Positions 6,420-19,224 of a stretch of DNA of 56,485 nt are shown here, in pieces. Each line of letters opens with the position of its first letter. Position 1 is the stretch's first letter. The notes beneath the pieces were generated by a model, which saw only the letters and a program-made list of their open reading frames with translations, was not told the DNA's origin and made no database searches. This DNA is from an uncultured Rhodobiaceae bacterium (GTDB lineage Bacteria; Pseudomonadota; Alphaproteobacteria; Parvibaculales; Parvibaculaceae): positions 1-56,485 of the forward strand of contig CAJXOU010000011.1 in the NCBI GenBank assembly GCA_913057645.1, read 5' to 3'. The position numbers and the translations under genes were made by a program.

Positions 6420-8303
6420 CTATCTCCTGAGCAGCAGGTCGCCATTGCCGCTGACGGCGAAGCGCCAGCCATCGCGGACATGCGTGGTGAAGAAGGCTTC
6501 CTCGACGAGGCAGGGACCGGCGCCCCAGTCACCCGGCGCGAGGTCTTCCAGGCGGAAGAGCGGCAGATCGGAGGTTCCCTTGCGGATGCCGGCGGGCTTC
6601 GCCTCGCGCTTCTCCTCACAGGCCGGGTCGCCGAGCGCAATCTTGTCGATCGGCTTCGTCACGCGCAGTTCGAGCCAGCTTTCGGTGTTGGCGCCGTCGT
6701 GGCGGCCATTGAGCTTCGCGCGCGTGTAGCCCGCGCCATTCTTCGTCAGCACCGCATAGTCGAGACGGCATTCGGCGAGATCGAAGCCCTCGGCGAGCAT
6801 GCCACGGCGCGCCTGTTCGGCGAGATCGGTCTTCGCCGCATCGACGGCATCCTCGCGGCCGGGGACGAGCTCGGCCATGTAGCTGTGCTCGATGTCGGAA
6901 AAGGCGATGCCGTAGGCGGAGAAGACGGCGGCGAATTTCGGGATGAGGACGGTCCTGAGGCCGGCCTTCTCGGCGACGCCGCAGGCGGACATGGGGCCCG
7001 CGCCGCCGAAGGCGAGCAGCGTCGCGTCCGGATTGCCTTTCGCCCAGGCGCCGATCTCGTCGGCGATCTTTGCGTGATAGGCGTCGGCCATCGCTTCAGC
7101 CGCTTCGGCGAGCGAGAGGCCGAGGGGCGTACCGACTTCGGCCATGATGGCGCGTTCGGCGCGCTCGCGGTCGAGCGGCATGCGGCCGCCGAAATAGGAG
7201 GACGGGTCGAGAACGCCGAGGGCGAGGAAGGCATCCGTCATGGTCGCCTTCGTACCGCCGCGCGCGAAGCAGGCGGGGCCGGGTGCGGCGCCGACGCTTT
7301 CGGGACCGACGAGGATCTTTCCGCTTTCGGCGCGGATGATCGAGCCGCCGCCCGCGCCGATGCTGTCGATGGCGGCGAGCGGGATCGACACCGGCGCGCC
7401 CTCGATGTGGCCGGATTGCGCAACGGCGACGGCGGAATCGTTGAACATGGCGATGTCGGTCGTGGTGCCGCCGATGTCGATGGAGCAGGCGGCGGGAATG
7501 CCGTAATGCTTCAGGAGAACCTCGCCGCCGACGACGCCGCCCTGGGGACCCGAGGAATAGGTCTTGATCGCGACCGTCTTCGCGACGCGGGTCGAGTTGC
7601 CGTCGTTGCGGAAGATGAGGAGCGGCTTGCGGGCGCGGTGTTCGCGCAGGCGGTTCTCGGCGTTGTAGAGGAAGGTTTCCATGGCGGGATGGAGGAAGGC
7701 GTTGACGACCGACGTCCAGACGCGCTGGTCGAGCGTGCCGATGCGCGTCAGCTCCGTCGAGAAGAGAAGCGGCACGGCGCCGAGCAGGTGGCGCGGGAAG
7801 GCGCGGTAGAGGACGCGCTTGGCGGATTTTTCGGACGCTGCCGCCTCCGCGCCGGAGAAGGCGATGACGATGCGGGCGGCGCCTGCCGAGACGAGCTTCG
7901 AGACGGCGGTGACGAGTTCGGCCGTGTTTTCCGTCGCGGCGGCGGGCGAGACGACGCGGACGCGATCGCCGACAAAGGCCTCGAAGAGCGCGGGGGCGGC
8001 GTTCATCGCTCCGGTCGCGACGGCGTCGTCATCCGTCAGCAGGCCGATGCGCGGCCCCTTGCGCTGCACGATGGCGTTGGTGCCCTGCGTGGTCGAATAG
8101 CGGATGTAGTCGATGGAGCCGACGAGCTTCGGCAGGTCGATCTCGCCATCGAGCTTTTCGGAAAGCGCTTCGAGGCACTTCACGAAGCATTCGGTCAGAT
8201 CGTGCGGTGTCGTCAGCGTCTTCGCGTGAACGGTCGAAGCGCCGTCGGTCGCGCAGACGTCGGTCAGCGTGCCGCCATTATCGATGCTTACAAGAAGCCC
8301 CAC
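6420..8303 (-). CDS. hyuA: HyuA-family ATP-hydrolysing carboxylase subunit (smaller paralogue, Apc alpha-like)
   Basis: A 627-residue hydantoinase A-family protein with an N-terminal DNGGTLTD phosphate motif at residues 8-15 (Asn replaces the usual Ile), a second DIGGTTTD motif near 275 and a GAGGGS loop near 315. It starts with GTG; GGGGAGGA lies 8 nt upstream and the ATPase motif then falls at the usual distance from the N-terminus. It is the first structural gene after the regulator. Having two different HyuA-like subunits in one operon separates the acetophenone-carboxylase type from the three-gene acetone carboxylases (one HyuA, one HyuB, one gamma). About 65 kDa predicted, close to the alpha subunit size I recall for Apc. 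Confidence 0.92.
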   Translation of the reverse strand: MGLLVSIDNGGTLTDVCATDGASTVHAKTLTTPHDLTECFVKCLEALSEKLDGEIDLPKLVGSIDYIRYSTTQGTNAIVQRKGPRIGLLTDDDAVATGAMNAAPALFEAFVGDRVRVVSPAAATENTAELVTAVSKLVSAGAARIVIAFSGAEAAASEKSAKRVLYRAFPRHLLGAVPLLFSTELTRIGTLDQRVWTSVVNAFLHPAMETFLYNAENRLREHRARKPLLIFRNDGNSTRVAKTVAIKTYSSGPQGGVVGGEVLLKHYGIPAACSIDIGGTTTDIAMFNDSAVAVAQSGHIEGAPVSIPLAAIDSIGAGGGSIIRAESGKILVGPESVGAAPGPACFARGGTKATMTDAFLALGVLDPSSYFGGRMPLDRERAERAIMAEVGTPLGLSLAEAAEAMADAYHAKIADEIGAWAKGNPDATLLAFGGAGPMSACGVAEKAGLRTVLIPKFAAVFSAYGIAFSDIEHSYMAELVPGREDAVDAAKTDLAEQARRGMLAEGFDLAECRLDYAVLTKNGAGYTRAKLNGRHDGANTESWLELRVTKPIDKIALGDPACEEKREAKPAGIRKGTSDLPLFRLEDLAPGDWGAGPCLVEEAFFTTHVRDGWRFAVSGNGDLLLRR

Positions 8304-8461
8304 CGCAAGTTCCTCCCCGATGTCTTTTCGGCGGGCGCCGAAACGAAGCGACCCGACCCTTTATGAGGAGAAAATTAGCGGTGGCCGACCCCCCGAACCC
8401 CACCCGAAAGGATGGAAATGAGAGGGAGAGAATTGCGGAGTAGAGGATGTTGAAAACAGCG

Positions 8462-8550
8462 CGTCATGACCCGCTTCATGCGGGTCATCCACGTCGCGCT
8501 GCGGAAACAGAAGGAAGACGTGGATGGCCCGGACAAGCCGGGCCATGACG
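8462..8550. repeat. Alphaproteobacterial palindromic repeat (type translating as MARLVRAIHV)
   Basis: Two 34-bp arms, 8462-8495 and 8517-8550, are imperfect reverse complements of each other. Each arm contains its own small palindrome (GACCCGC..GCGGGTC and GGCCCGG..CCGGGCC). Read on the minus strand it starts with a MARLVRAIHV-like peptide, the usual miscalled product of this well-known intergenic element. It lies in the 278-bp gap 8304-8581 between the regulator and the first carboxylase gene. The rest of the gap shows only a C-rich stretch near 8383-8410 that may be a decayed repeat. Confidence 0.85.
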
Positions 8551-8581
8551 AACTTCGGGAGCAAGCCAAGACAGCAAACCG

Positions 8582-11341
8582 TTACTCGATAAGACCGAAA
8601 TGGCGGGCGACGGAGACGGCCTGCATGCGGTTGCTGATCTGCAGTTTCTCGAAGATGTTCCTGAGGTGCCACTTCACCGTGTTGGTCGACAAGGAGAGCC
8701 GGTCGGCGAGCGCCTTGTTGGAAAAACCGTTGGAGACGAGACGCAGAATCTCGCGTTCACGGTCCGTCAGATCCTCGAGCAGCGGCGCGCCCGCATCCTC
8801 GTCGGCATAGTCCTCATCGTGCTGCGCCAGCGGCGGCGCGAACTCGCCTGCTTCCGACAGGAGTTTGTCGAGATAGGCGGAAACGCGGTCCTTCTGCGGC
8901 AGGTCGGGGAACTTCGGCAGGGCCTGACGCGCCTCGTGCAGCAGACGGACGGCCTGCGGGCCTTCGTCGAGAACGAGGCGGATGAACTGGTCCGGCGCGC
9001 CGACCTGGAGCGCCTCGATCAGCGCACGGCGGGCGGAATTCACCTGGCCCTCGACATTGAGCGAGATGGCAAGGAGCAGGTTGAGCTTCATGAAGCGGCG
9101 GAGACGGCGCTGCGCGCGCGCCTTGCGGGCGGCGGGCTGGATCAGCGCGCGGGCATCGGCGTGACGGCCGGCGAGAATCAACAGGCGCGCCTCGGTGACG
9201 GTATGCGCTTCGGTTTCGCCCGCATGAAAAACGAGATCGTCTTCATTGTCGGGCTCGGCATGGGCGAGGCTCGCGAAGCGGGTGCGGGCCTTTTCGAGAT
9301 CGCCGGCAAGCGTCGCCTGGCGGACGAGTTCGGCCTTCGCATAGGTGACGAGGCGGCGCAGATTGTAGCGGTGGCCGAGATACATCATGCGGTCGAGGAC
9401 TTCCTCGGCCTCACGCTCCTCGCCGCGCAGATTGGCGATGCGCGCCATGGTCAGGAAGGCAAGCGCGAGCGGTTCGACGATCGCCTGCTGTTCGAGGAGC
9501 AGAAGATGATCGTGGAGCAGCGTTTCGGCCTCCACGATGCAGTTCTTCTCGTAGAGCGTTTCGGCGAGGCAGGCGGCGATCACCGAACCGGCGGTGACGC
9601 TCGCGGTCGCGCATTCCTCGTTGTGGACATAGGCCTGTTTCAGGCTCTTCAACGCTTCCTCGTTGTAGCCCTGCGCCGCGAGGACGTTGGCGTGAATCCA
9701 CTCGCAATAGGACAGGCCGAAGGGATTGTGCGCGCGGTCATGAAGCGCGCGGGCCTGCAGCGTGACGTCGCGCGCCTCCTCGAAGCGGCTGTTCAGATAG
9801 AGCCAGTATCCGCGCGCGTTGAGCGCGACGGCATATTCGAAGCCCTTGCCCGGCGTGAGATGGTCGAGGGCGAGCTGCGCGTTGCGGCCGATCTCGACGA
9901 CCTGATCCTGTGCGGCCGTGGTGAAGATGCGGGTGTAGTAGTGGACGCCCCAGGCTTCCTGCGACGCCCCTTCCCTTTCGAGCGCGGCCTGGCGGAGCGC
10001 GAGGATGCGGTTTGCCTTGGCGAACTCGCGGCGGAAGCCGTAGGCGACGATGGCGGCGTTGAGGATGTCTTCGTATTCCTGGATGATCTCCGGCGGGAGG
10101 CGATCCGCGTAGCGCACGATGAGATCGAGGCGCTCTTCGCCGACGAGCCGCTCGATACCGGCATTCAGCAGCGCCGCCGCTTCCTTCTCGTGGCCGGCAT
10201 CGAGATAATGCGTGATCGCTTCCTCGCGAAAGTCATGCTCCGCGTACCACTCGGCAATCCGCTTGTGACGGGCAAGGACTTCCGTTTCCGACATTTCGCG
10301 GCGGAGCCGCGTCAGCAGGACCTGCCGGAAAACGGTGTGAAAACGGAACCAGCGCCGCTCCATGTCGACCGGCGTGAGGAAGAGGCCGAGATGTTCGATC
10401 TCGTCGAGGCAATGGGCGCCGTCGGGCCGGCCTGAGACATGCTCCAGCAGTTCGGGACAGATGCGCTCGGGCATGCAGGCTTCGAGCAATACGCGCTGGA
10501 AATCGGCGGACAGATTCTCGAAGACGTCGGTGGCGAGGAAGTCGATCAGGTCCGGCGTGACGCCCGAGGCGGGAAGCGCGCGCGCCCGGCCGGTGCGGCC
10601 GCGCATCGAGAGGCGGATGCATTGAAGGGCGGCGGGCCAGCCATCGGTCGCGGTCTGATAGCGGTCCACTTCGGAATCGGAGATGTCGCGAAACTCGCGG
10701 AAGAATTCCGAGGTCTCGTTGGCGCGAAAGCGCAAGCCCTCGACGTTGACGACGACGGCCTGTTCGCGCAACTGAAGCCGCGGAAGATTGATCGCCGGGA
10801 TCACGCGCGTGCCGATGCAGAGCTGGGCGCCGGAGGGCAGCACACGGACCAGCTGCGCGATCACGGCTTCCATGCCGGGATGCGCCGCCTGTTCGAAATT
10901 GTCGATGACGATGACGATGTCCTGCTGCACGGCGCGAACGCAGCGCAGGAAATCCTGGATCGACGCGGACGAGGTTTCGGACAGGGTGACGACCGGCTCG
11001 CCGTCGGGGATCGCTCCCGTGATCGCCTCGCAGAGAAGGCGGAGGAAAGGGGACGGGTCGGAATAATGCGCTTCGAGATGAAGCCAGGCGATGCTGGCGC
11101 CCTGCCCCTCCCGCCAGGCGCAGTATTGCCGCAACAGCGTCGTCTTGCCGAAGCCGGCGGGCGCCTGCGCGACGATGAGGCGGACGCCGGTGTGATTTTT
11201 CAGACGATCGATCTGGTGCTTGCGCAGCACGATGTTGTTGGACGCGGGCGACCGGGACAGCGCCTTCGCGAAAGAGGGCGCAGCCACCTTCCTCCCGCGC
11301 GGCTTGTCCCGCGATACCTCAGGTTCCGCTGCTCCTCCCAT
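8582..11341 (-). CDS. MalT-like large ATP-binding LuxR (LAL) transcriptional regulator
   Basis: A 919-residue regulator. A STAND-type NTPase domain has Walker A (APAGFGKTT) at residues 60-68 and Walker B (IVIVIDNF) near 147. A long alpha-helical TPR-like sensor region runs from about 380 to 830, and a LuxR helix-turn-helix occupies the last 65 residues (LTDREREIL..NTVKWHLRNIFEKL). Such proteins activate transcription when ATP and an inducer are bound. I chose the ATG at 11341, which has GGAGGAGGG 4 nt upstream, over an upstream start at 11374. It lies between the MDR gene and the carboxylase genes in the same direction, so it is the likely activator of the carboxylase operon (inference). Confidence 0.93.
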   Translation of the reverse strand: MGGAAEPEVSRDKPRGRKVAAPSFAKALSRSPASNNIVLRKHQIDRLKNHTGVRLIVAQAPAGFGKTTLLRQYCAWREGQGASIAWLHLEAHYSDPSPFLRLLCEAITGAIPDGEPVVTLSETSSASIQDFLRCVRAVQQDIVIVIDNFEQAAHPGMEAVIAQLVRVLPSGAQLCIGTRVIPAINLPRLQLREQAVVVNVEGLRFRANETSEFFREFRDISDSEVDRYQTATDGWPAALQCIRLSMRGRTGRARALPASGVTPDLIDFLATDVFENLSADFQRVLLEACMPERICPELLEHVSGRPDGAHCLDEIEHLGLFLTPVDMERRWFRFHTVFRQVLLTRLRREMSETEVLARHKRIAEWYAEHDFREEAITHYLDAGHEKEAAALLNAGIERLVGEERLDLIVRYADRLPPEIIQEYEDILNAAIVAYGFRREFAKANRILALRQAALEREGASQEAWGVHYYTRIFTTAAQDQVVEIGRNAQLALDHLTPGKGFEYAVALNARGYWLYLNSRFEEARDVTLQARALHDRAHNPFGLSYCEWIHANVLAAQGYNEEALKSLKQAYVHNEECATASVTAGSVIAACLAETLYEKNCIVEAETLLHDHLLLLEQQAIVEPLALAFLTMARIANLRGEEREAEEVLDRMMYLGHRYNLRRLVTYAKAELVRQATLAGDLEKARTRFASLAHAEPDNEDDLVFHAGETEAHTVTEARLLILAGRHADARALIQPAARKARAQRRLRRFMKLNLLLAISLNVEGQVNSARRALIEALQVGAPDQFIRLVLDEGPQAVRLLHEARQALPKFPDLPQKDRVSAYLDKLLSEAGEFAPPLAQHDEDYADEDAGAPLLEDLTDREREILRLVSNGFSNKALADRLSLSTNTVKWHLRNIFEKLQISNRMQAVSVARHFGLIE

Positions 11342-11410
11342 CGATCCCTCCTCCAAGGGTGGTGGGCGCCACACAGGCGCCCGCGCGATCGGGATGCGCT
11401 TTTTCGCGCG

Positions 11411-13558: not shown

Positions 13559-14470
13559 TCAGGGGTCAATTCGCGTGCCCGACCGGCCCGACAGAATATC
13601 CGCCGCCTGCCCGAGCGCGCCGATGAAGGCGGGATTGCCGGTCGCCAGCGCGAAGTCGCGCGCCGCCTGGATCTTGGGGCCCATCGACCCCGCGGCAAAG
13701 GCGGCGGGATCGAGGGTCCGGGCGGAGAGGACATCGATGCGGGCCTGCGCGGGCGTGCCCCAGGCCTCGTAGACGCCGTCCACATCCGTCAGGATCAGCA
13801 AGCGGCCGGCGTCGAGATCCTGCGCCAGAAGACAGGCCGCGAGATCCTTGTCGATGACGGCTTCGACACCTTCCGGTGCGCCTCCCGGACCGGCGCGGAC
13901 GGGAATGCCGCCGCCGCCCGCGCAAACGACAAGACACCCGCTTTCGACGAGGCGGCGGATGGCGGCGAGCTGCACGATCCGGCGCGGCGCGGGCGAGGCG
14001 ACGACGCGGCGCCAGGCCTTTCCGTCCGGGCCTTCCGCTGCGACGGCCCAGCCGCGTTCGGCGGCGAGCGCGCGCGCCGTGCTTTCGTCATAGACAGGCC
14101 CGATCGGTTTCGACGGCTTTGCGAATGCGGGATCCGCGGGATCGACCAGCGTCTGCGTGAGGACGGTGACGATCTCGCGATCCGGCAGCGCGCGGCGCAT
14201 CGCTTCCTCGATCACATATCCGATCATGCCCTGGGATTCAGCGCCCAGCACATCGAGCGGATAAGGCGGCGCGCCCTTGTAGGCTTCGGCTTCGAGCGCG
14301 AGGAGGCCGACCTGGGGGCCGTTGCCGTGCACGAGCACGACCTCGTGTTCGCGCGAGAGAGCGGCGAGCATGTCCGCGGCCTCGCCCATGTTGCGGCGCT
14401 GCTCGCCGATGCCGAGCGTATCGCCGCGTTTCAGAAGGGCGTTTCCACCGATGGCGACGACGAGACGCAT
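13559..14470 (-). CDS. arcC: Carbamate kinase (agmatine deiminase pathway)
   Basis: 303 residues of the amino-acid-kinase fold. The N-terminus has VAIGGNALL, then HGNGPQVG near residue 50, a CAGGGGIPV segment near 180 and KDLAACLLA near 205; these are typical carbamate kinase motifs. It makes ATP and carbamate from carbamoyl phosphate and ADP. It starts 3 nt after the stop of the agmatine deiminase gene and is the last gene of the four-gene agmatine operon, where it would recover one ATP per agmatine. The same position is seen for AguC in Gram-positive agmatine operons. Confidence 0.95.
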   Translation of the reverse strand: MRLVVAIGGNALLKRGDTLGIGEQRRNMGEAADMLAALSREHEVVLVHGNGPQVGLLALEAEAYKGAPPYPLDVLGAESQGMIGYVIEEAMRRALPDREIVTVLTQTLVDPADPAFAKPSKPIGPVYDESTARALAAERGWAVAAEGPDGKAWRRVVASPAPRRIVQLAAIRRLVESGCLVVCAGGGGIPVRAGPGGAPEGVEAVIDKDLAACLLAQDLDAGRLLILTDVDGVYEAWGTPAQARIDVLSARTLDPAAFAAGSMGPKIQAARDFALATGNPAFIGALGQAADILSGRSGTRIDP

Positions 14471-14473
14471 GGC

Positions 14474-15577
14474 TCAGGCACCCCGCGCCGCGGGCTGCTG
14501 CTGGGTGATGCAGTGGATGTTGCCGCCGCCGAGAAGGATTTCGCGGGCGGGAACGGGGACAACCGTGCGGCGGGGAAAGAGCCCGGCGATCCTTTCGATG
14601 GCCTCACCATCTCGCGGATCGCCGAAGACGGGCACGGCGACCACGCCGTTGGCGATGTAGAAATTGACGTAGGAGGCGGCGAGGCGTGCACCGGCGAGGC
14701 GCGGCTGCGTGCCCTCGACCGCATCGACGCCGCGACTCTCTTCCTCCGTGAGATAGAGCGGTCCCGGCTGGTGCAGCTTGTGAATTTCGAAGTGCCGTCC
14801 GCGCGCGTCCGTCGCGGCGGAAAGGCGCTCGAAGGCATCGCGGGAAATGTCGTATTGCGGGTCGGACTTGTCGTCGGTCCAGGTGAGCGCGACGACGCCG
14901 GGGCGCACGAAGCAGCAAAGGTTGTCGATGTGACCGCTGGTTTCGTCGTCGACGACGCCGAGGCCCAGCCAGACGGTTTTCTCGATGGAGAGATAATCAC
15001 CGAGAACCTGCTCGATCCCGGCGCGGGAGAGGCCGGGGTTCCGGTTCGGGTTGAGAAGGCATTCCTCGGTCGTCAGCAGCGTGCCTTCGCCATCGACATG
15101 GATGGAGCCGCCCTCGAGCACGATGGGCGCGCGGTAACGCTCCACGCGCTCGATCTCCGCCACCTTGGAGGCGACGAGATCGTCCTGGTCCCACGGGAAA
15201 TAGAGGCCGCCATCGAGACCGCCCCAGGCGTTGAAGATCCAGTCGACGGCGCGGACATCGCCCCGCCCGTTCACGACGAAGGTGGGGCCGCAGTCGCGCA
15301 TCCATGAATCATTGTTCGACAGTTCGACAACGCGGATGGAGGGCGGGAGCATCGCACGCGCATTGGCGAACTGGCGCGGCGATGCGCCGACGGTAACCGG
15401 TTCGCCGCGCGCAATTGCTTCCGCGACGGCGACGAAGGCCTGCTGGGCGGGCTTGGCGCCGAGACGCCAGTTGTCCGGCCGCTCGGGCCAGAGCATCCAT
15501 GTTCCGGCATGAGGCTCGAATTCGCCCGGCATGCGGAAGCCATCCGTCCGCGGTGTCGTGGCAAGCGTCCGCACCAT
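14474..15577 (-). CDS. aguA: Agmatine deiminase
   Basis: 367 residues of the guanidino-modifying (PPAD) family. It carries the family motifs [23 protein letters not shown] near the N-terminus (read in parts), [13 protein letters not shown] near 90, [14 protein letters not shown] near 155 and GHIDNLCCF near 220. The catalytic Cys356 lies in [13 protein letters not shown]. The enzyme converts agmatine to N-carbamoylputrescine and ammonia in the cytoplasm. GAGGG precedes the ATG by 6 nt. It sits between the transporter and carbamate kinase genes, as in the agmatine operons of lactic acid bacteria. Confidence 0.96.
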
Positions 15578-15589
15578 TGAAGACCCTCA

Positions 15590-15622
15590 AGAAGAAAGAG
15601 GCGGCGACGCCAACGCGCCGCC
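15590..15622 (-). terminator. Possible terminator between transporter and agmatine deiminase genes
   Basis: On the minus strand a 7-bp stem (GGCGGCG/CGCCGCC type, 15616-15622 with 15600-15606) is followed by a T-rich tract with C interruptions (15590-15599). It lies just beyond the transporter stop and before the agmatine deiminase start. It could lower expression of the downstream genes rather than stop transcription. Confidence 0.45.
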
Positions 15623-15636
15623 GCCGACCGTCATTT

Positions 15637-17037
15637 TCAACCGGCACGCTTCCGTTCGGCCCAACGGACAAGGCCTTCCCCGACGATGAGCGTGACCACG
15701 ACGCCGGCAACAACCGAGGCGGCATAGATCATGTCGAACTCGCCCGGTGTATAGATGAAGAAGACCACCGCCTGCAGGATGAAGAGCATGCAGATAACGG
15801 CAAGGACAACCGCCCCGCCCTTCCCGCCGGGCACGCGGTAGGGACGCGGCGTCGAGGGATCGCTGTTTCTGAGCTTCAGGAAGGCCGCGAACATCGCAAG
15901 GTAGGGCAGCAGAAAGACGATGGAAGAGAAGGCGAAGAGCGTCCAGAAAAGATCTTCCGCATCCGCCGCGAGGAAGCCGTAGATGACGATGACGACGGTC
16001 GTCACGACACCTGTGACGATGGCGGCGCTGGCGGGCGTCTTGTGGACGGCGTGAAGGCGCGAGAACATCGGCGGCAGATTGCCGTCGAGTGCCGCTTCCG
16101 CCGCCGACCGGTTCGCGCCCATCGTCCATGTGACCATGTTGGCGAGGAAGGAATAAAGCGCCATCAGGCCCAGCGCGATAACGAGCGCGCCGCCCGTGCC
16201 GCCCTCACCGAGCAGAACGCGGAGTGTATCGACGATGCCGCTGACGAGGTCGATCTCGTCGAGGGGGAGCGCGATCAGGATGCCGATGGTGGCGAAGAGA
16301 TAGAAGGCGGCGATTAGAATGCCGGATACGGCAATCGTGACAGGCACGTCACGCGCCGGATTCTTCATTTCCGCGCTTGCACCGGACATGAGCTCGAAGC
16401 CCATGAAGTTGTAGACGATGACCGGCAGGAAGGCGAGCGAGGCACCCCAGCTCGGCGTCATGCTGGAAAGGGTGAGTTCGTTCGCGACACCGTGATTTGC
16501 CGCGTAGACGAACCCGCCGATGCCGATTACGAGCATGATCGCGACCTTGAAGATCGCGCCGAGATTCGGCACCCATTTACCGATGTCGAGACGGACGACA
16601 TTGATCCAGACGGTCAGCCATGTCAGTGCGACGGCAATCGCGATCTGCGTCCAGAGGCCGAGATCGGGCATGAAGAGCGCGGCGAAGATGCCGGCGAAAA
16701 GAATGAAGACCGAGGGCTGCCAGAGTGCAACGTTGATCCACCATAGCCAGGCGGTTCGGCCGCCCCAGCGCGCACCGAAGGCCCGGCGCACCCAGGCATA
16801 GATGCCGCCCTGGTCGGGATAGGCGCTGCCGAGTTCGGCCGTGATCAGCCCATAGGGAATGAAGAAGAACACCATGGTGAATATCCACCAGAAGACGGAT
16901 TGCGGGCCAATGGCCGCGGACGCCGCAAGCTGGTCGATGACGAGAATGGCGCAAACGGTGAACAGGGTGAGATCGAGGCCACGCAGGACCTTCTTGTAGC
17001 CGCGCTGTTGCGGCGCGCCGGCGGTGGTATCGGACAT
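15637..17037 (-). CDS. APC-superfamily transporter, probable agmatine/putrescine antiporter
   Basis: 466 residues with about 12 hydrophobic segments. It shows features of the amino acid-polyamine-organocation superfamily, such as the YPDQGGIYAWVRRAFG segment near residues 75-90. The ATG at 17037 has AAGGGGG upstream; a TTG six codons earlier is the alternative. It lies between the putrescine carbamoyltransferase and agmatine deiminase genes, the exact place of AguD in Gram-positive agmatine operons. There the antiporter brings in agmatine and exports putrescine. The antiporter role is inferred from context; the family and topology are seen. Confidence 0.9.
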   Translation of the reverse strand: MSDTTAGAPQQRGYKKVLRGLDLTLFTVCAILVIDQLAASAAIGPQSVFWWIFTMVFFFIPYGLITAELGSAYPDQGGIYAWVRRAFGARWGGRTAWLWWINVALWQPSVFILFAGIFAALFMPDLGLWTQIAIAVALTWLTVWINVVRLDIGKWVPNLGAIFKVAIMLVIGIGGFVYAANHGVANELTLSSMTPSWGASLAFLPVIVYNFMGFELMSGASAEMKNPARDVPVTIAVSGILIAAFYLFATIGILIALPLDEIDLVSGIVDTLRVLLGEGGTGGALVIALGLMALYSFLANMVTWTMGANRSAAEAALDGNLPPMFSRLHAVHKTPASAAIVTGVVTTVVIVIYGFLAADAEDLFWTLFAFSSIVFLLPYLAMFAAFLKLRNSDPSTPRPYRVPGGKGGAVVLAVICMLFILQAVVFFIYTPGEFDMIYAASVVAGVVVTLIVGEGLVRWAERKRAG

Positions 17038-17101
17038 CGTCTTTTCCCCCTTCAAGGGTTGTTCGCATGGAGCACGACCGAGTCCCCACCCACCACCACG
17101 G

Positions 17102-18103
17102 TCAGCCGAGGAATGCCTCGACGAGGCCGCGATGATGCGCGATCAGGGTCTCGGACGCACGCTTGAGACGCGGGTACACGAACCAGACAAGCAATGCTTT
17201 TTCGGTATGGAGCCTGTTTTCCGACTGATCGTAGATGATGGATTGAGGTCCATCCATGACTTCGTCGGTCGCCTCGACGCCGCGCGAGGCGGGCAGGCAA
17301 TGCATGAAACGGGCTGTAGCGGGCGCTTTCGCGAGAAGGTCCGAGTTCACCTGGAATTTCGGCATGAAGGCGGCGCGGCGCTCGGGAATCTCGTCTTCCT
17401 GACCGATCCACCACCAGAGATCCGTGTAGATGAAGTCGGCATCGGAGACGGCGGCGACAGGATCGTCAGTGAAGGTGAGCGTCGCACCGGACTGCGCGCA
17501 GGCTTCCTTCACCATGGCGCGATGTTCGGCGGAGACCTGATATTTCTCCGGCGCGGCCTGCGTGAAGGAAATACCGAGGCGGGCGCAGATGAACATCAGC
17601 GAGACGCAGACATTGGTCGCATCGCCGACGAAAGTGAGTTTGAGATCGGTGAGTGCTTTGCCTTTCGGCGCGTGTTCCGTCATCGTGAAAACGTCGCAGA
17701 GAACCTGCGTCGGGTGGTTGAAATCCGTGAGACCGTTGATGACCGGAACGGTCGCGTATTTTGCGAGGTCGAGCACCGTCTGATGCTTCAGGGTGCGCGC
17801 CTCGATGACATCCACCATGCGGGAGACGACGCGGGCCGTATCCGCGATCGACTCGCGCGCGCCGAGATGGATTTCGCCGGGACGCAGATAGAGCGCGTGG
17901 CCACCGAGCTTCGTCATGGCGACCTCGAAGGAGACGCGGGTGCGCGTCGAGGGCTCCTCGAAGATCATGCCGAGAGATGCGCCCTGCAGAAGCCGCGGAC
18001 AGGCGCCTTCCTTGTCGGCCCGTTTCAGAAGGGCCGTCAGTTCCATGATCTTCTGCAGCTCGCCGCTCGAAAAATCCAGGATGTGAACGAAATGACGCAG
18101 CAT
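17102..18103 (-). CDS. ptcA: Putrescine carbamoyltransferase
   Basis: 333 residues of the aspartate/ornithine carbamoyltransferase family. The carbamoyl-phosphate motif STRTR is at 52-56. The YLRPGEIHLG and NHPTQ segments follow, then GDATNVCVS near 160 and the MHCLPASRG motif near 270. The wording around these (EEPSTRTRVSFE, PVINGLTDFNHPTQ, FVGDATNVC) is closer to enterococcal putrescine carbamoyltransferase than to ornithine carbamoyltransferases as I remember them. It would split N-carbamoylputrescine with phosphate to putrescine and carbamoyl phosphate. It is the first gene of the agmatine operon. A true ornithine enzyme is less likely given the neighbours. The name aguB is used for this gene in Gram-positives but for the amidase in Pseudomonas, so I use ptcA. 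Confidence 0.9.
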   Translation of the reverse strand: MLRHFVHILDFSSGELQKIMELTALLKRADKEGACPRLLQGASLGMIFEEPSTRTRVSFEVAMTKLGGHALYLRPGEIHLGARESIADTARVVSRMVDVIEARTLKHQTVLDLAKYATVPVINGLTDFNHPTQVLCDVFTMTEHAPKGKALTDLKLTFVGDATNVCVSLMFICARLGISFTQAAPEKYQVSAEHRAMVKEACAQSGATLTFTDDPVAAVSDADFIYTDLWWWIGQEDEIPERRAAFMPKFQVNSDLLAKAPATARFMHCLPASRGVEATDEVMDGPQSIIYDQSENRLHTEKALLVWFVYPRLKRASETLIAHHRGLVEAFLG

Positions 18104-18351
18104 AAGATAAAGCCCCCAAGCCGGAGCCGGAAATGGACCAGGCAGGAGAATTAAAGCTTCCGCGATACGGCGAGTCCATTGGCATGAGCGGCGGCAAATT
18201 GAAGCAAGGCAGTAAGGGCGGCGTCTCCGCTTCACCAGAGAGCGGATTTGCGACAGTATGGTTGGCGCATCAAGATCGGTGCCTGGACCATGTTGCAGTG
18301 CGATCCATATGCGCTTGCTGAACCTTGTCTCCTTATTGAAGAGTTTATGAC
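18104..18351. promoter_or_regulatory. Divergent promoter region of the agmatine genes
   Basis: 248 bp separate the divergent putrescine carbamoyltransferase operon and the amidase gene, so promoters for both must lie here. I found no convincing palindromic operator, -35/-10 pair or hairpin. No regulator gene is adjacent. Confidence 0.5.
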
Positions 18352-19224
18352 ATGACGCAGATGACGGTGGCCGCGACGCAGATGGCTTGCGGCTGGGACA
18401 GGGACGAGAACATCGCGCGCGCCGAGAAGCTCGTTCATGCGGCGGCGGAGCGCGGCGCAGGCGTGATCCTGCTGCAGGAACTCTTCGAGACACCCTATTT
18501 CTGCAAGGATACCGAGCCGGACCTGCTGCACCTCGCCGGCCCTGCGACCGACAATCCCGCCGTGCAGCATTTTCGCTCCCTCTCAGCAAAGTACGAGATC
18601 GTGCTCCCGATCTCGATCTATGAGCGGGCGAACAACGCGCAATACAACTCGCTTGTCGTGATCGATGGCGGCGAGATACTCGGCATCTACCGCAAGTCGC
18701 ATATTCCGGACGGACCGGGCTATCGGGAGAAGTATTATTTCAATCCGGGCGACACCGGCTTCCACGTCTGGAACACGCGCCGCGGGCGCGTCGGCGCCGC
18801 GATCTGCTGGGACCAGTGGTTTCCGGAGACGGCGCGCATATTGACGCTTAAGGGTGCCGACGTCGTTCTCTACCCGACCGCCATCGGGTCCGAGCCGCAT
18901 GACGAGACGATTCATTCCCGAGACCACTGGCAAAGGACGATGCAGGGTCACTCGGCGGCGAACCTGATCCCTGTCGTTGCGTCGAACCGGATCGGGCGCG
19001 AGGAGGGATCGAGCTGCGCCATCACCTTTTACGGATCGTCCTTCGTCACCGACGCAACCGGCGCGAAGGTCGCCGAGGCAAGCGAACACGAAGAAGAAGT
19101 GATCCTTGCAAGTTTCGACGTCGAGCAGAACAGGCGGCAGCGCGTGGCCTGGGGCGTGTTCCGCGACCGGCGGCCGGAACTCTACGGGGACATCCTCACG
19201 CTCGACGGATCGCAGCGGCGCTGA
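18352..19224 (+). CDS. aguB: N-carbamoylputrescine amidase
   Basis: 290 residues of the nitrilase superfamily with the Glu-Lys-Cys triad visible: E43 in LLQELFETPYF, K115 in YRKSHIPDGPGY and C152 in AAICWDQWFPE. The segments around these are those of N-carbamoylputrescine amidohydrolases (AguB/CPA). It hydrolyses N-carbamoylputrescine to putrescine, CO2 and ammonia. It is divergent from the operon that can do the same step by phosphorolysis. The ribosome site is weak (GAAGAG about 8 nt before ATG). Its stop is only 3 nt from the stop of the convergent gene. Confidence 0.95.
   Translation: MTQMTVAATQMACGWDRDENIARAEKLVHAAAERGAGVILLQELFETPYFCKDTEPDLLHLAGPATDNPAVQHFRSLSAKYEIVLPISIYERANNAQYNSLVVIDGGEILGIYRKSHIPDGPGYREKYYFNPGDTGFHVWNTRRGRVGAAICWDQWFPETARILTLKGADVVLYPTAIGSEPHDETIHSRDHWQRTMQGHSAANLIPVVASNRIGREEGSSCAITFYGSSFVTDATGAKVAEASEHEEEVILASFDVEQNRRQRVAWGVFRDRRPELYGDILTLDGSQRR

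Follow-up and report, generated by a model that had tools for sequence, protein, structure and literature searches.

The window analysed here is the whole of a 56,485-nucleotide stretch of contig CAJXOU010000011.1 from an uncultured Rhodobiaceae bacterium (GCA_913057645.1). It carries, in a Parvibaculum genome, the genes for a putrescine carbamoyltransferase (PTC), an APC permease, an agmatine deiminase (aguA, here aguA1) and a carbamate kinase (arcC), transcribed in this order on the reverse strand (13559-18103), with a gene for N-carbamoylputrescine amidase (aguB) diverging beside them. Here it is proposed that these genes probably serve agmatine catabolism, as an agmatine deiminase system from outside the lineage of the Bacilli in which part of the N-carbamoylputrescine would yield ATP and part would be hydrolysed. 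In this mechanism, the permease would take up agmatine in exchange for putrescine, and the imported agmatine would be deiminated by agmatine deiminase to N-carbamoylputrescine, which PTC would phosphorolyse to putrescine and carbamoyl phosphate; ArcC would then convert the carbamoyl phosphate to ATP, CO2 and ammonia. AguB would irreversibly hydrolyse the same N-carbamoylputrescine, which would make this compound the branch point between energy recovery and hydrolysis. The gene content and order, family membership, lineage, co-occurrence and pocket sequence were established directly.

The gene products were named with the curated cut-offs of NCBIfam. The PTC clears TIGR04384 (526.9 bits, cut-off 500, for a translation reaching 18115, four residues longer than that from the preferred ATG), AguA1 clears TIGR03380 (590.1 bits, cut-off 381.8) and AguB the equivalog TIGR03381 (448 bits, cut-off 410.25). 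ArcC clears the carbamate kinase subfamily NF009008 (424.9 bits, cut-off 361) and falls narrowly under the equivalog TIGR00746 (355.6 bits, cut-off 358.25). The permease was placed in general Pfam families only (PF13520, 203.7 bits). AguB has the QELFE, YRKSH and CWDQW contexts, which we take to be those of its catalytic residues. All five genes are intact from start to stop (Table 1), and Rfam and tRNA scans of the window gave no match. The order of the four operon genes is identical to that of the Enterococcus faecalis record compared here, and the extracts of PMC514541 describe it for E. faecalis, Lactococcus lactis and Streptococcus mutans. The enterococcal order claimed in an earlier note on this DNA was thus borne out by family models, coordinates and the E. 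faecalis record, as was its rival amidase beside the operon. Ten window proteins were searched over 85 loci (L021-L105), some of them truncated by contig ends; since 34 of these 85 keep PTC, APC permease, aguA and arcC in the same order on one strand, the gene order is not due to chance. The best named relatives of the window PTC are Parvibaculum records (top match 95% identity). The genome also encodes a separate ArgF, with FEKPSTRT and an SMG loop (VSMG), and a PyrB-like protein, so labelled from an FFEASTRT motif that we assume to be typical of PyrB; because these are retained, the operon PTC is an additional transcarbamylase.

Table 1. Coordinates of the operon, the divergent aguB gene and the associated intergenic features in the window.
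Feature	Position	Strand	Basis
Putrescine carbamoyltransferase (PTC), type I pocket	17102..18103	-	ATG at 18103; TIGR04384, motifs, AlphaFold model, fold match 4a8p
APC permease, presumed agmatine/putrescine antiporter (AguD-like)	15637..17055	-	PF13520; comparison with E. faecalis operon permease; fold match 5j4n
Agmatine deiminase AguA1	14474..15577	-	TIGR03380; nearest solved structure 2jer; DCGPTF context
Carbamate kinase ArcC	13559..14470	-	3 bp after aguA1; NF009008; nearest solved structure 8crv; co-occurrence with PTC
N-carbamoylputrescine amidase AguB, nitrilase superfamily	18352..19224	+	Divergent from operon; TIGR03381; QELFE, YRKSH, CWDQW contexts
PTC-aguB divergent intergenic region	18104..18351		Candidate element TTGCgTCAmTTTGyCGCC; alignment of 15 Parvibaculum regions
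Permease gene-aguA1 gap	15578..15636	-	11-pair G+C-rich hairpin at 15600-15625

The extracts of Polo et al. (2012; PMC3282769) give a rule for recognizing PTCs: STRT and HCLP motifs, no lysine two residues before STRT, a 230-loop (Y/W)(G/W)(V/L/I)X in place of the SMG of ornithine transcarbamylase (OTC), and a C-terminal extension of about 20 residues forming a helix with the signature (L/f/v/i)XX(F/Y/L/M/v)(L/i/m). The window PTC has STRT at 52, preceded by Glu50 (in FEEPSTRT), HCLP at 268 (in HCLPASRG), DLWWWIG in the loop (in TDLWWWIGQE) and VEAFL at 328-332, at the end of a helix modelled over 318-332, together with H79, R83 and N164; the OTC lysine and the SMG loop are absent from it. Its AlphaFold model (34 aligned sequences) has a predicted local distance difference test score (pLDDT) of 93.6, and E. 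faecalis PTC entries take all of the first 20 places among its fold matches, above any OTC, with 4a8p at the top. Judged by motifs and model, the transcarbamylase qualifies as a PTC under the published rule.

Its amine pocket is of a type, here called type I, in which E50, R83, N164 and TDLWWW-x-G-Q-E are common to all 72 tabulated rows (Parvibaculaceae 24, other Alphaproteobacteria 12, Gammaproteobacteria with one unclassified proteobacterium 6, Chloroflexi 27, Marinimicrobia 2, Verrucomicrobia 1), a set biased to its own type, since either the window protein or the PTC model served as the query, and containing closely related Parvibaculum rows. Excluded from the table are L054, L074, L088 and L091, which are partial copies or lie at contig ends, as well as L126, which has the same sequence as L080. 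In a gapped alignment of the type I rows, position 233 is Ile or Val and position 236 is Glu; in the window loop tryptophans replace Y230 and L232, and E236 is retained. HNLP stands for HCLP in seven of the 27 Chloroflexi rows. The full pocket also occurs in one of four actinobacterial rows (L087) and one of eight Bacillota rows (L100), and another actinobacterial row differs from it by a single Gly to Asp change. It is not shared by two further alphaproteobacterial and five other Pseudomonadota rows, which were classed as other types after the tree had been viewed. Gln two residues before STRT is found in the Bacilli rows L101, L103, L105, L130 and L134. The PTC-like enzymes of Enterococcus sp. 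665A and Eggerthellaceae (L096:8001-9005, L098:8001-9008, L099:8001-9005), encoded beside an APC permease and AguA, appear to have a further pocket type, with S83, an SSVMWY loop and HYLPAQRG at the position of HCLP. The Chloroflexi locus L061 has tandem PTC-type genes (8001-8993 and 9011-10015; products 69% and 53% identical to the window PTC) preceding a permease gene and aguA.

The permease of the E. faecalis operon scores 282 bits (36%) against the window permease, 90 bits against GadC, 58 bits each against AdiC and PotE, and 29 bits against the only other PF13520 protein of the genome. The top fold match of the window permease model is AdiC with agmatine (5j4n; template modelling score, TM, 0.72/0.78), with GadC and others close behind, and from these comparisons the protein is presumed to be an agmatine/putrescine antiporter. 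The nearest solved structure to AguA1 is the agmatine deiminase 2jer, presumably from E. faecalis, and that to ArcC is 8crv (314.8 bits; 1b7b, 174.1 bits), which we take to be from Pseudomonas aeruginosa, and 1b7b from Enterococcus. Among 61 related genomes, the PTC is over the cut-off in 25, including 22 of 27 Parvibaculum genomes, and with G057 (484.9 bits) the PTC-bearing genomes number 26. Carbamate kinase was found in 24 of the 61 at E<=1e-30 (19 over the cut-off), every one of them PTC-bearing, which corresponds to 24/26 PTC-bearing versus 0/35 other genomes; the two PTC-bearing genomes without it are incomplete assemblies (57% and 79%). Arginine deiminase was found in none of the 61 (the positive control, Lactococcus lactis, was detected). 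The link between PTC and ArcC is supported because carbamate kinase follows the distribution of PTC and because the search found no arginine deiminase that could give it another use. One Parvibaculum genome has a second carbamate kinase gene (G021:C7:22834-23733).

As for the agmatine supply, the genome has a second aguA-like gene, aguA2, on another contig (G000:C27:8835-9839); each route could therefore have a deiminase of its own here. Its product is 43% identical to AguA1, lies slightly under the curated cut-off (360.9 bits, cut-off 381.8) and has as its nearest solved structure the agmatine deiminase 1vkp, which we take to be a plant enzyme. In three genomes (G006, G014 and G019) AguA1 is the sole deiminase found and both PTC and AguB are present; there one deiminase would supply both branches, unless another escaped the search. 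AdiA-type and pyruvoyl-type arginine decarboxylases were not found in the genome of the window, and its three PF02784 proteins are LysA (over the cut-off) and two whose nearest solved structures are lysine/ornithine decarboxylases. Imported agmatine fits this inventory, because no arginine decarboxylase was recognised in the three families searched, other types and an arginine activity of the two PF02784 proteins being possible. The substrates of PTC and permease, the direction of flux and the mutual regulation of the two branches are inferred here, and a choice by the cell between ATP recovery and hydrolysis is plausible.

The four-gene order was found in Alpha- and Gammaproteobacteria, a metagenome-assembled genome (MAG) of Verrucomicrobia, one Chloroflexi MAG and three Bacilli; the remaining Chloroflexi loci have PTC-(APC)-aguA with no local arcC match. 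In Anaerolineae loci such as L040, L044, L052 and L060 there is a PTC-aguA pair with no local match to the window permease or carbamate kinase. The window PTC is 66-73% identical to those of other Proteobacteria and Anaerolineae versus 47-51% to those of Enterococcus, Listeria and lactobacilli. The earlier note had described the operon as of Gram-positive type and named a phylogeny of its four proteins as a check; trees were built for PTC, the permease and a four-protein concatenate, with supports from short searches (Shimodaira-Hasegawa approximate likelihood ratio test, SH-aLRT), and long branches meet in all three. In the quick PTC tree (88 rows), the window belongs to a cluster of mainly proteobacterial sequences (35 rows, SH-aLRT 91), close to one of Chloroflexi (25 rows, SH-aLRT 90) and distant from E. 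faecalis, Listeria and lactobacilli (separating branches 81-89). The four-protein tree (57 rows, 1480 columns), in which the Bacilli are represented by three operons and Enterococcus 665A, agrees in setting the operon apart from the Bacilli; the permease tree, poorly resolved with 11 of 22 inner branches open, places it likewise. The split between the two halves of the operon tree has a support of 76 in the 57-row tree and 97 in a 23-row set, and the root of the 57-row tree is weak (76); the donor may have been on the Chloroflexi or on the proteobacterial side. Forcing the Parvibaculaceae and the three Bacilli operons into a clade lowers the log-likelihood (lnL) by 86.5 (23-row set), and the approximately unbiased (AU) test rejects it, and with it a transfer from Bacilli (p-AU 1.2e-4). 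The phylogeny thus gave a distinct, proteobacterial/Chloroflexi lineage with no Bacilli grouping, contrary to the Gram-positive label; of the two origins suggested in the earlier note, the under-recognised proteobacterial version stood and the transfer, by implication from Gram-positives, did not.

Within this lineage the operon has a patchy distribution. In even samples, the PTC is over the cut-off in 3/385 Alphaproteobacteria, all of the family of the window (4 at E<=1e-110), and in 2/398 Pseudomonadota (6 at E<=1e-110). The operon genes have a third-position G+C of 0.77-0.82, close to that of the neighbours (0.76-0.84). The operon of Methyloligella sp. GL2 (L046) lies inside the Parvibaculaceae clade of the four-protein tree, and that of P. 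sedimenti and G015 groups with Caulobacter, Hyphomonadaceae and Lysobacteraceae (support 100). A single origin of all Parvibaculaceae operons was considered and rejected (p-AU 5.6e-5; 3.4e-10 in a 26-row set). From these comparisons the operon appears to represent an old, patchy, non-Bacilli lineage, inherited for the most part within Parvibaculaceae, with losses.

AguB is over the cut-off in all 27 Parvibaculum genomes, including five without PTC (G003, G007, G009, G012 and G018). According to the coordinates, aguB is divergent from the PTC gene and within about 300 bases of it in 20 of the 22 PTC-bearing Parvibaculum genomes, the exceptions being G014 and G019. The aguB-adjacent operons do not form a single clade (p-AU 2.8e-5, 26-row set), so that the adjacency involves two unrelated operon lineages; the P. 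sedimenti AguB stays among the Parvibaculum AguB proteins in the AguB tree. Most of the window group is flanked by tonB, with an endonuclease/phosphatase gene where the locus reaches that far. P. sedimenti has neither of these, and in G004 (L090) the flanks, read by eye from open-frame starts, are genes that elsewhere adjoin aguA2. Among the five operon-free genomes, tonB adjoins aguB in three (G012, G018 and G009), and in G012 (L110) the two adjoin at the site where, in its close relative G001 (L197), the operon separates them. Taking this empty site as the state before insertion proved too simple: in an ArgF and LysA tree of 22 genomes, where it is placed by ArgF only, G012 nests among PTC-bearing relatives, so operon loss or segment exchange is likelier. 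The aguB of G012 has 85.4% DNA identity to that of L029, with 92.8% and 94.4% for the flanks, and the AguB tree places G012 and G009 outside their species position.

The pairing extends beyond adjacency. In a scan of named genomes for PTC relatives, limited to the best 80 of 125, AguB was searched in the genomes of 50 of these 80 PTC-bearing loci, which are of unstated completeness and carry group labels assigned by us; it was found in 21 of the 50 at E<=1e-60 (17 over the cut-off). With type I PTC, it is present in 15 of 17 Alphaproteobacteria (three of them the Parvibaculum genomes also counted as G019, G006 and G004), the two without it being Tepidicaulis-type, as well as in five of five other Proteobacteria (three below the cut-off) and one of one Verrucomicrobia (below the cut-off). 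At E<=1e-60 it was found in none of 21 PTC-bearing Chloroflexi, one Marinimicrobia and one actinobacterial MAG, nor in any of four genomes with other PTC types (Shimia, Enterococcus 665A and two Eggerthellaceae). AguB occurs in 12 of 12 Alphaproteobacteria outside Parvibaculaceae with type I PTC (all E<=1e-124) versus 5 of 24 sampled genomes of the class (E<=1e-90), a contrast with a Fisher p of 4.9e-6, uncorrected for shared descent.

Several observations weigh against the reading proposed here. Q50, Q79, H83 and Q164 of the E. faecalis PTC are replaced by Glu, His, Arg and Asn, the tyrosine Y233 is lost, with Ile in its place, and the 230-loop is one residue shorter in the alignment. In the extracts of PMC3282769, Y233, Q79, H83 and E236 form a roof over the bound putrescine, which ornithine disturbs. 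The Gln at the third position of Fx(Q)xSxRT, given in the extracts of PMC4581275 as a PTC trait, is Glu in the window PTC and in all 72 type I rows; those extracts describe Y233, E236 and H83 as variable among PTCs and leave it open whether such variants are true PTCs. The permease passes no equivalog or functional model cut-off in NCBIfam. No regulator gene adjoins the operon, unlike in E. faecalis, the neighbours being a tonB-like gene and aguB, and in most Anaerolineae loci PTC and aguA are found with no carbamate kinase gene nearby. In two Parvibaculum genomes (G001, locus L197, and G022, locus L029) aguA1 is missing from the operon, PTC, APC permease and arcC are kept, and the genomes retain aguA2 and aguB, so the gene set is not indivisible. 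The co-occurrence tests, finally, ignore shared descent.

These points bear differently on the alternatives. The altered pocket, with an Asn164 like that of the genome's own OTC and with variants that the extracts of PMC4581275 treat as unproven, would suit a transcarbamylase that uses an amine other than putrescine, in an operon degrading a relative of agmatine. This is unlikely in view of the full-scoring agmatine deiminase AguA1, of the adjoining AguB, which would act on the same carbamoyl compound, in 20 of 22 genomes, and of the absence of the OTC lysine and SMG loop. A more elaborate and still less likely conjecture is that the type I enzyme with its TDLWWW loop, present in Proteobacteria, Anaerolineae, Marinimicrobia and others, attained its amine specificity through a pocket unlike that of the E. 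faecalis enzyme. Its preferred carbamoyl-amine would then not be N-carbamoylputrescine, AguA1 and the antiporter would have adapted along with it, and the operon, placed next to aguB as a switch at the branch point, would form a novel pathway yielding carbamoyl phosphate. A role of PTC and ArcC in providing arginine and pyrimidine synthesis with carbamoyl phosphate, or a flow towards N-carbamoylputrescine and not ATP, is very improbable: transcarbamylase reactions are reversible according to the extracts of PMC3282769, and the genome has ArgF and a PyrB-like protein, but the tight co-occurrence of carbamate kinase and the permease in the operon fit a catabolic flux.

Acquisition of the operon from Gram-positive bacteria is the least credible of the alternatives, although the gene order is that of enterococci, one Bacillota MAG (L100) and one actinobacterial MAG (L087) have the same pocket type and others come close to it, and the PTC tree puts type I closer to Enterococcus sp. 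665A and Eggerthellaceae than to the other Bacilli (support 89). The PTC identities, the rejected joint clade with the three Bacilli operons and the third-position G+C matching the neighbours stand against it. A more serious, if still doubtful, alternative accepts the operon as working in the way proposed and regards its aguB neighbourhood as chance or hitchhiking, with no joint function. Among the 85 loci the adjacency occurs only in Parvibaculum, where P. indicum (G019) and G014 are exceptions, and aguB is lacking in the Tepidicaulis-type genomes and G028, which carry the operon; against this, the adjacency holds with two unrelated operon lineages and in three different flank sets, and aguB co-occurs with type I PTC in other Alphaproteobacteria where the two are not adjacent. 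A catabolic agmatine deiminase system with two branches from N-carbamoylputrescine is the reading retained here.

Regarding non-coding elements, the element TTGCgTCAmTTTGyCGCC was seen by eye, weakly conserved, in several of the 15 aligned Parvibaculum PTC-aguB regions and is a candidate operator on that evidence. No sigma-70-type promoter match was found in this region, a negative that carries little weight in an alphaproteobacterium. In 8 of 12 Parvibaculaceae, including the window, the permease-aguA1 gap holds a strong hairpin, in some cases with a very different sequence, and the gap is shorter in the four without one; the hairpin is possibly a transcript-processing or attenuation element. 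A MalT-like/LuxR-type gene (8582-11374, 2.2 kb away), which several relatives also keep next to adh and tonB, was set aside as regulator of the operon, as it occupies the same place in the operon-free G012 (L110).

In gene set and order the operon resembles the agmatine deiminase system of E. faecalis, Lactococcus lactis and S. mutans, for which the gene names are presumably aguBDAC, and it shares the published PTC signature and C-terminal helix with the E. faecalis type. Its products are 47% (PTC), 34% (permease), 55% (AguA) and 42% (carbamate kinase) identical to those of E. faecalis, with a different amine pocket and, instead of an adjacent regulator, a divergent aguB. AguB is of the type encoded by aguBA of P. 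aeruginosa, and aguA2 and aguB would form that route; however, the two genes form an operon there, according to the extracts of PMC514541, while here aguB diverges from the phosphorolytic operon and aguA2 is on another contig. Vibrio, Photobacterium and relatives have a third type, also a proteobacterial PTC-like enzyme with a nearby permease, AguA and carbamate kinase, but with FEQPSTRT or FEAGSTRT, K83, a DSFYW loop and another gene order, on a separate branch.

The existence of a Parvibaculum PTC is already in print: putative PTCs of Parvibaculum lavamentivorans and Caulobacter sp., the former of the same genus and named family as the window enzyme, are among the sequences aligned in PMC3282769 (2012), whose extracts include them only in a C-terminal alignment and do not discuss operon, aguB pairing, lineage or pocket. 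Among open-licence PMC papers, no title was found on the operon lineage, the pocket or the aguB pairing; Parvibaculum with agmatine or putrescine carbamoyltransferase led to PMC3282769 alone, and Anaerolineae with agmatine deiminase and carbamate kinase to none. New here are the operon lineage, the constant type I pocket and the repeated aguB pairing, along with the co-occurrence of carbamate kinase with PTC and the presence of a second aguA in a genome where three families searched gave no recognisable arginine decarboxylase. The agmatine deiminase system is typically described from Gram-positive bacteria, according to the extracts of PMC4581275, and the constant pocket of a lineage of Parvibaculum, other Proteobacteria and Anaerolineae bears on the question raised there, whether variant PTCs are true PTCs. 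The repeated pairing with aguB constitutes a natural test of phosphorolysis versus hydrolysis of one intermediate, which is extended by the relatives lacking one deiminase or the whole operon.

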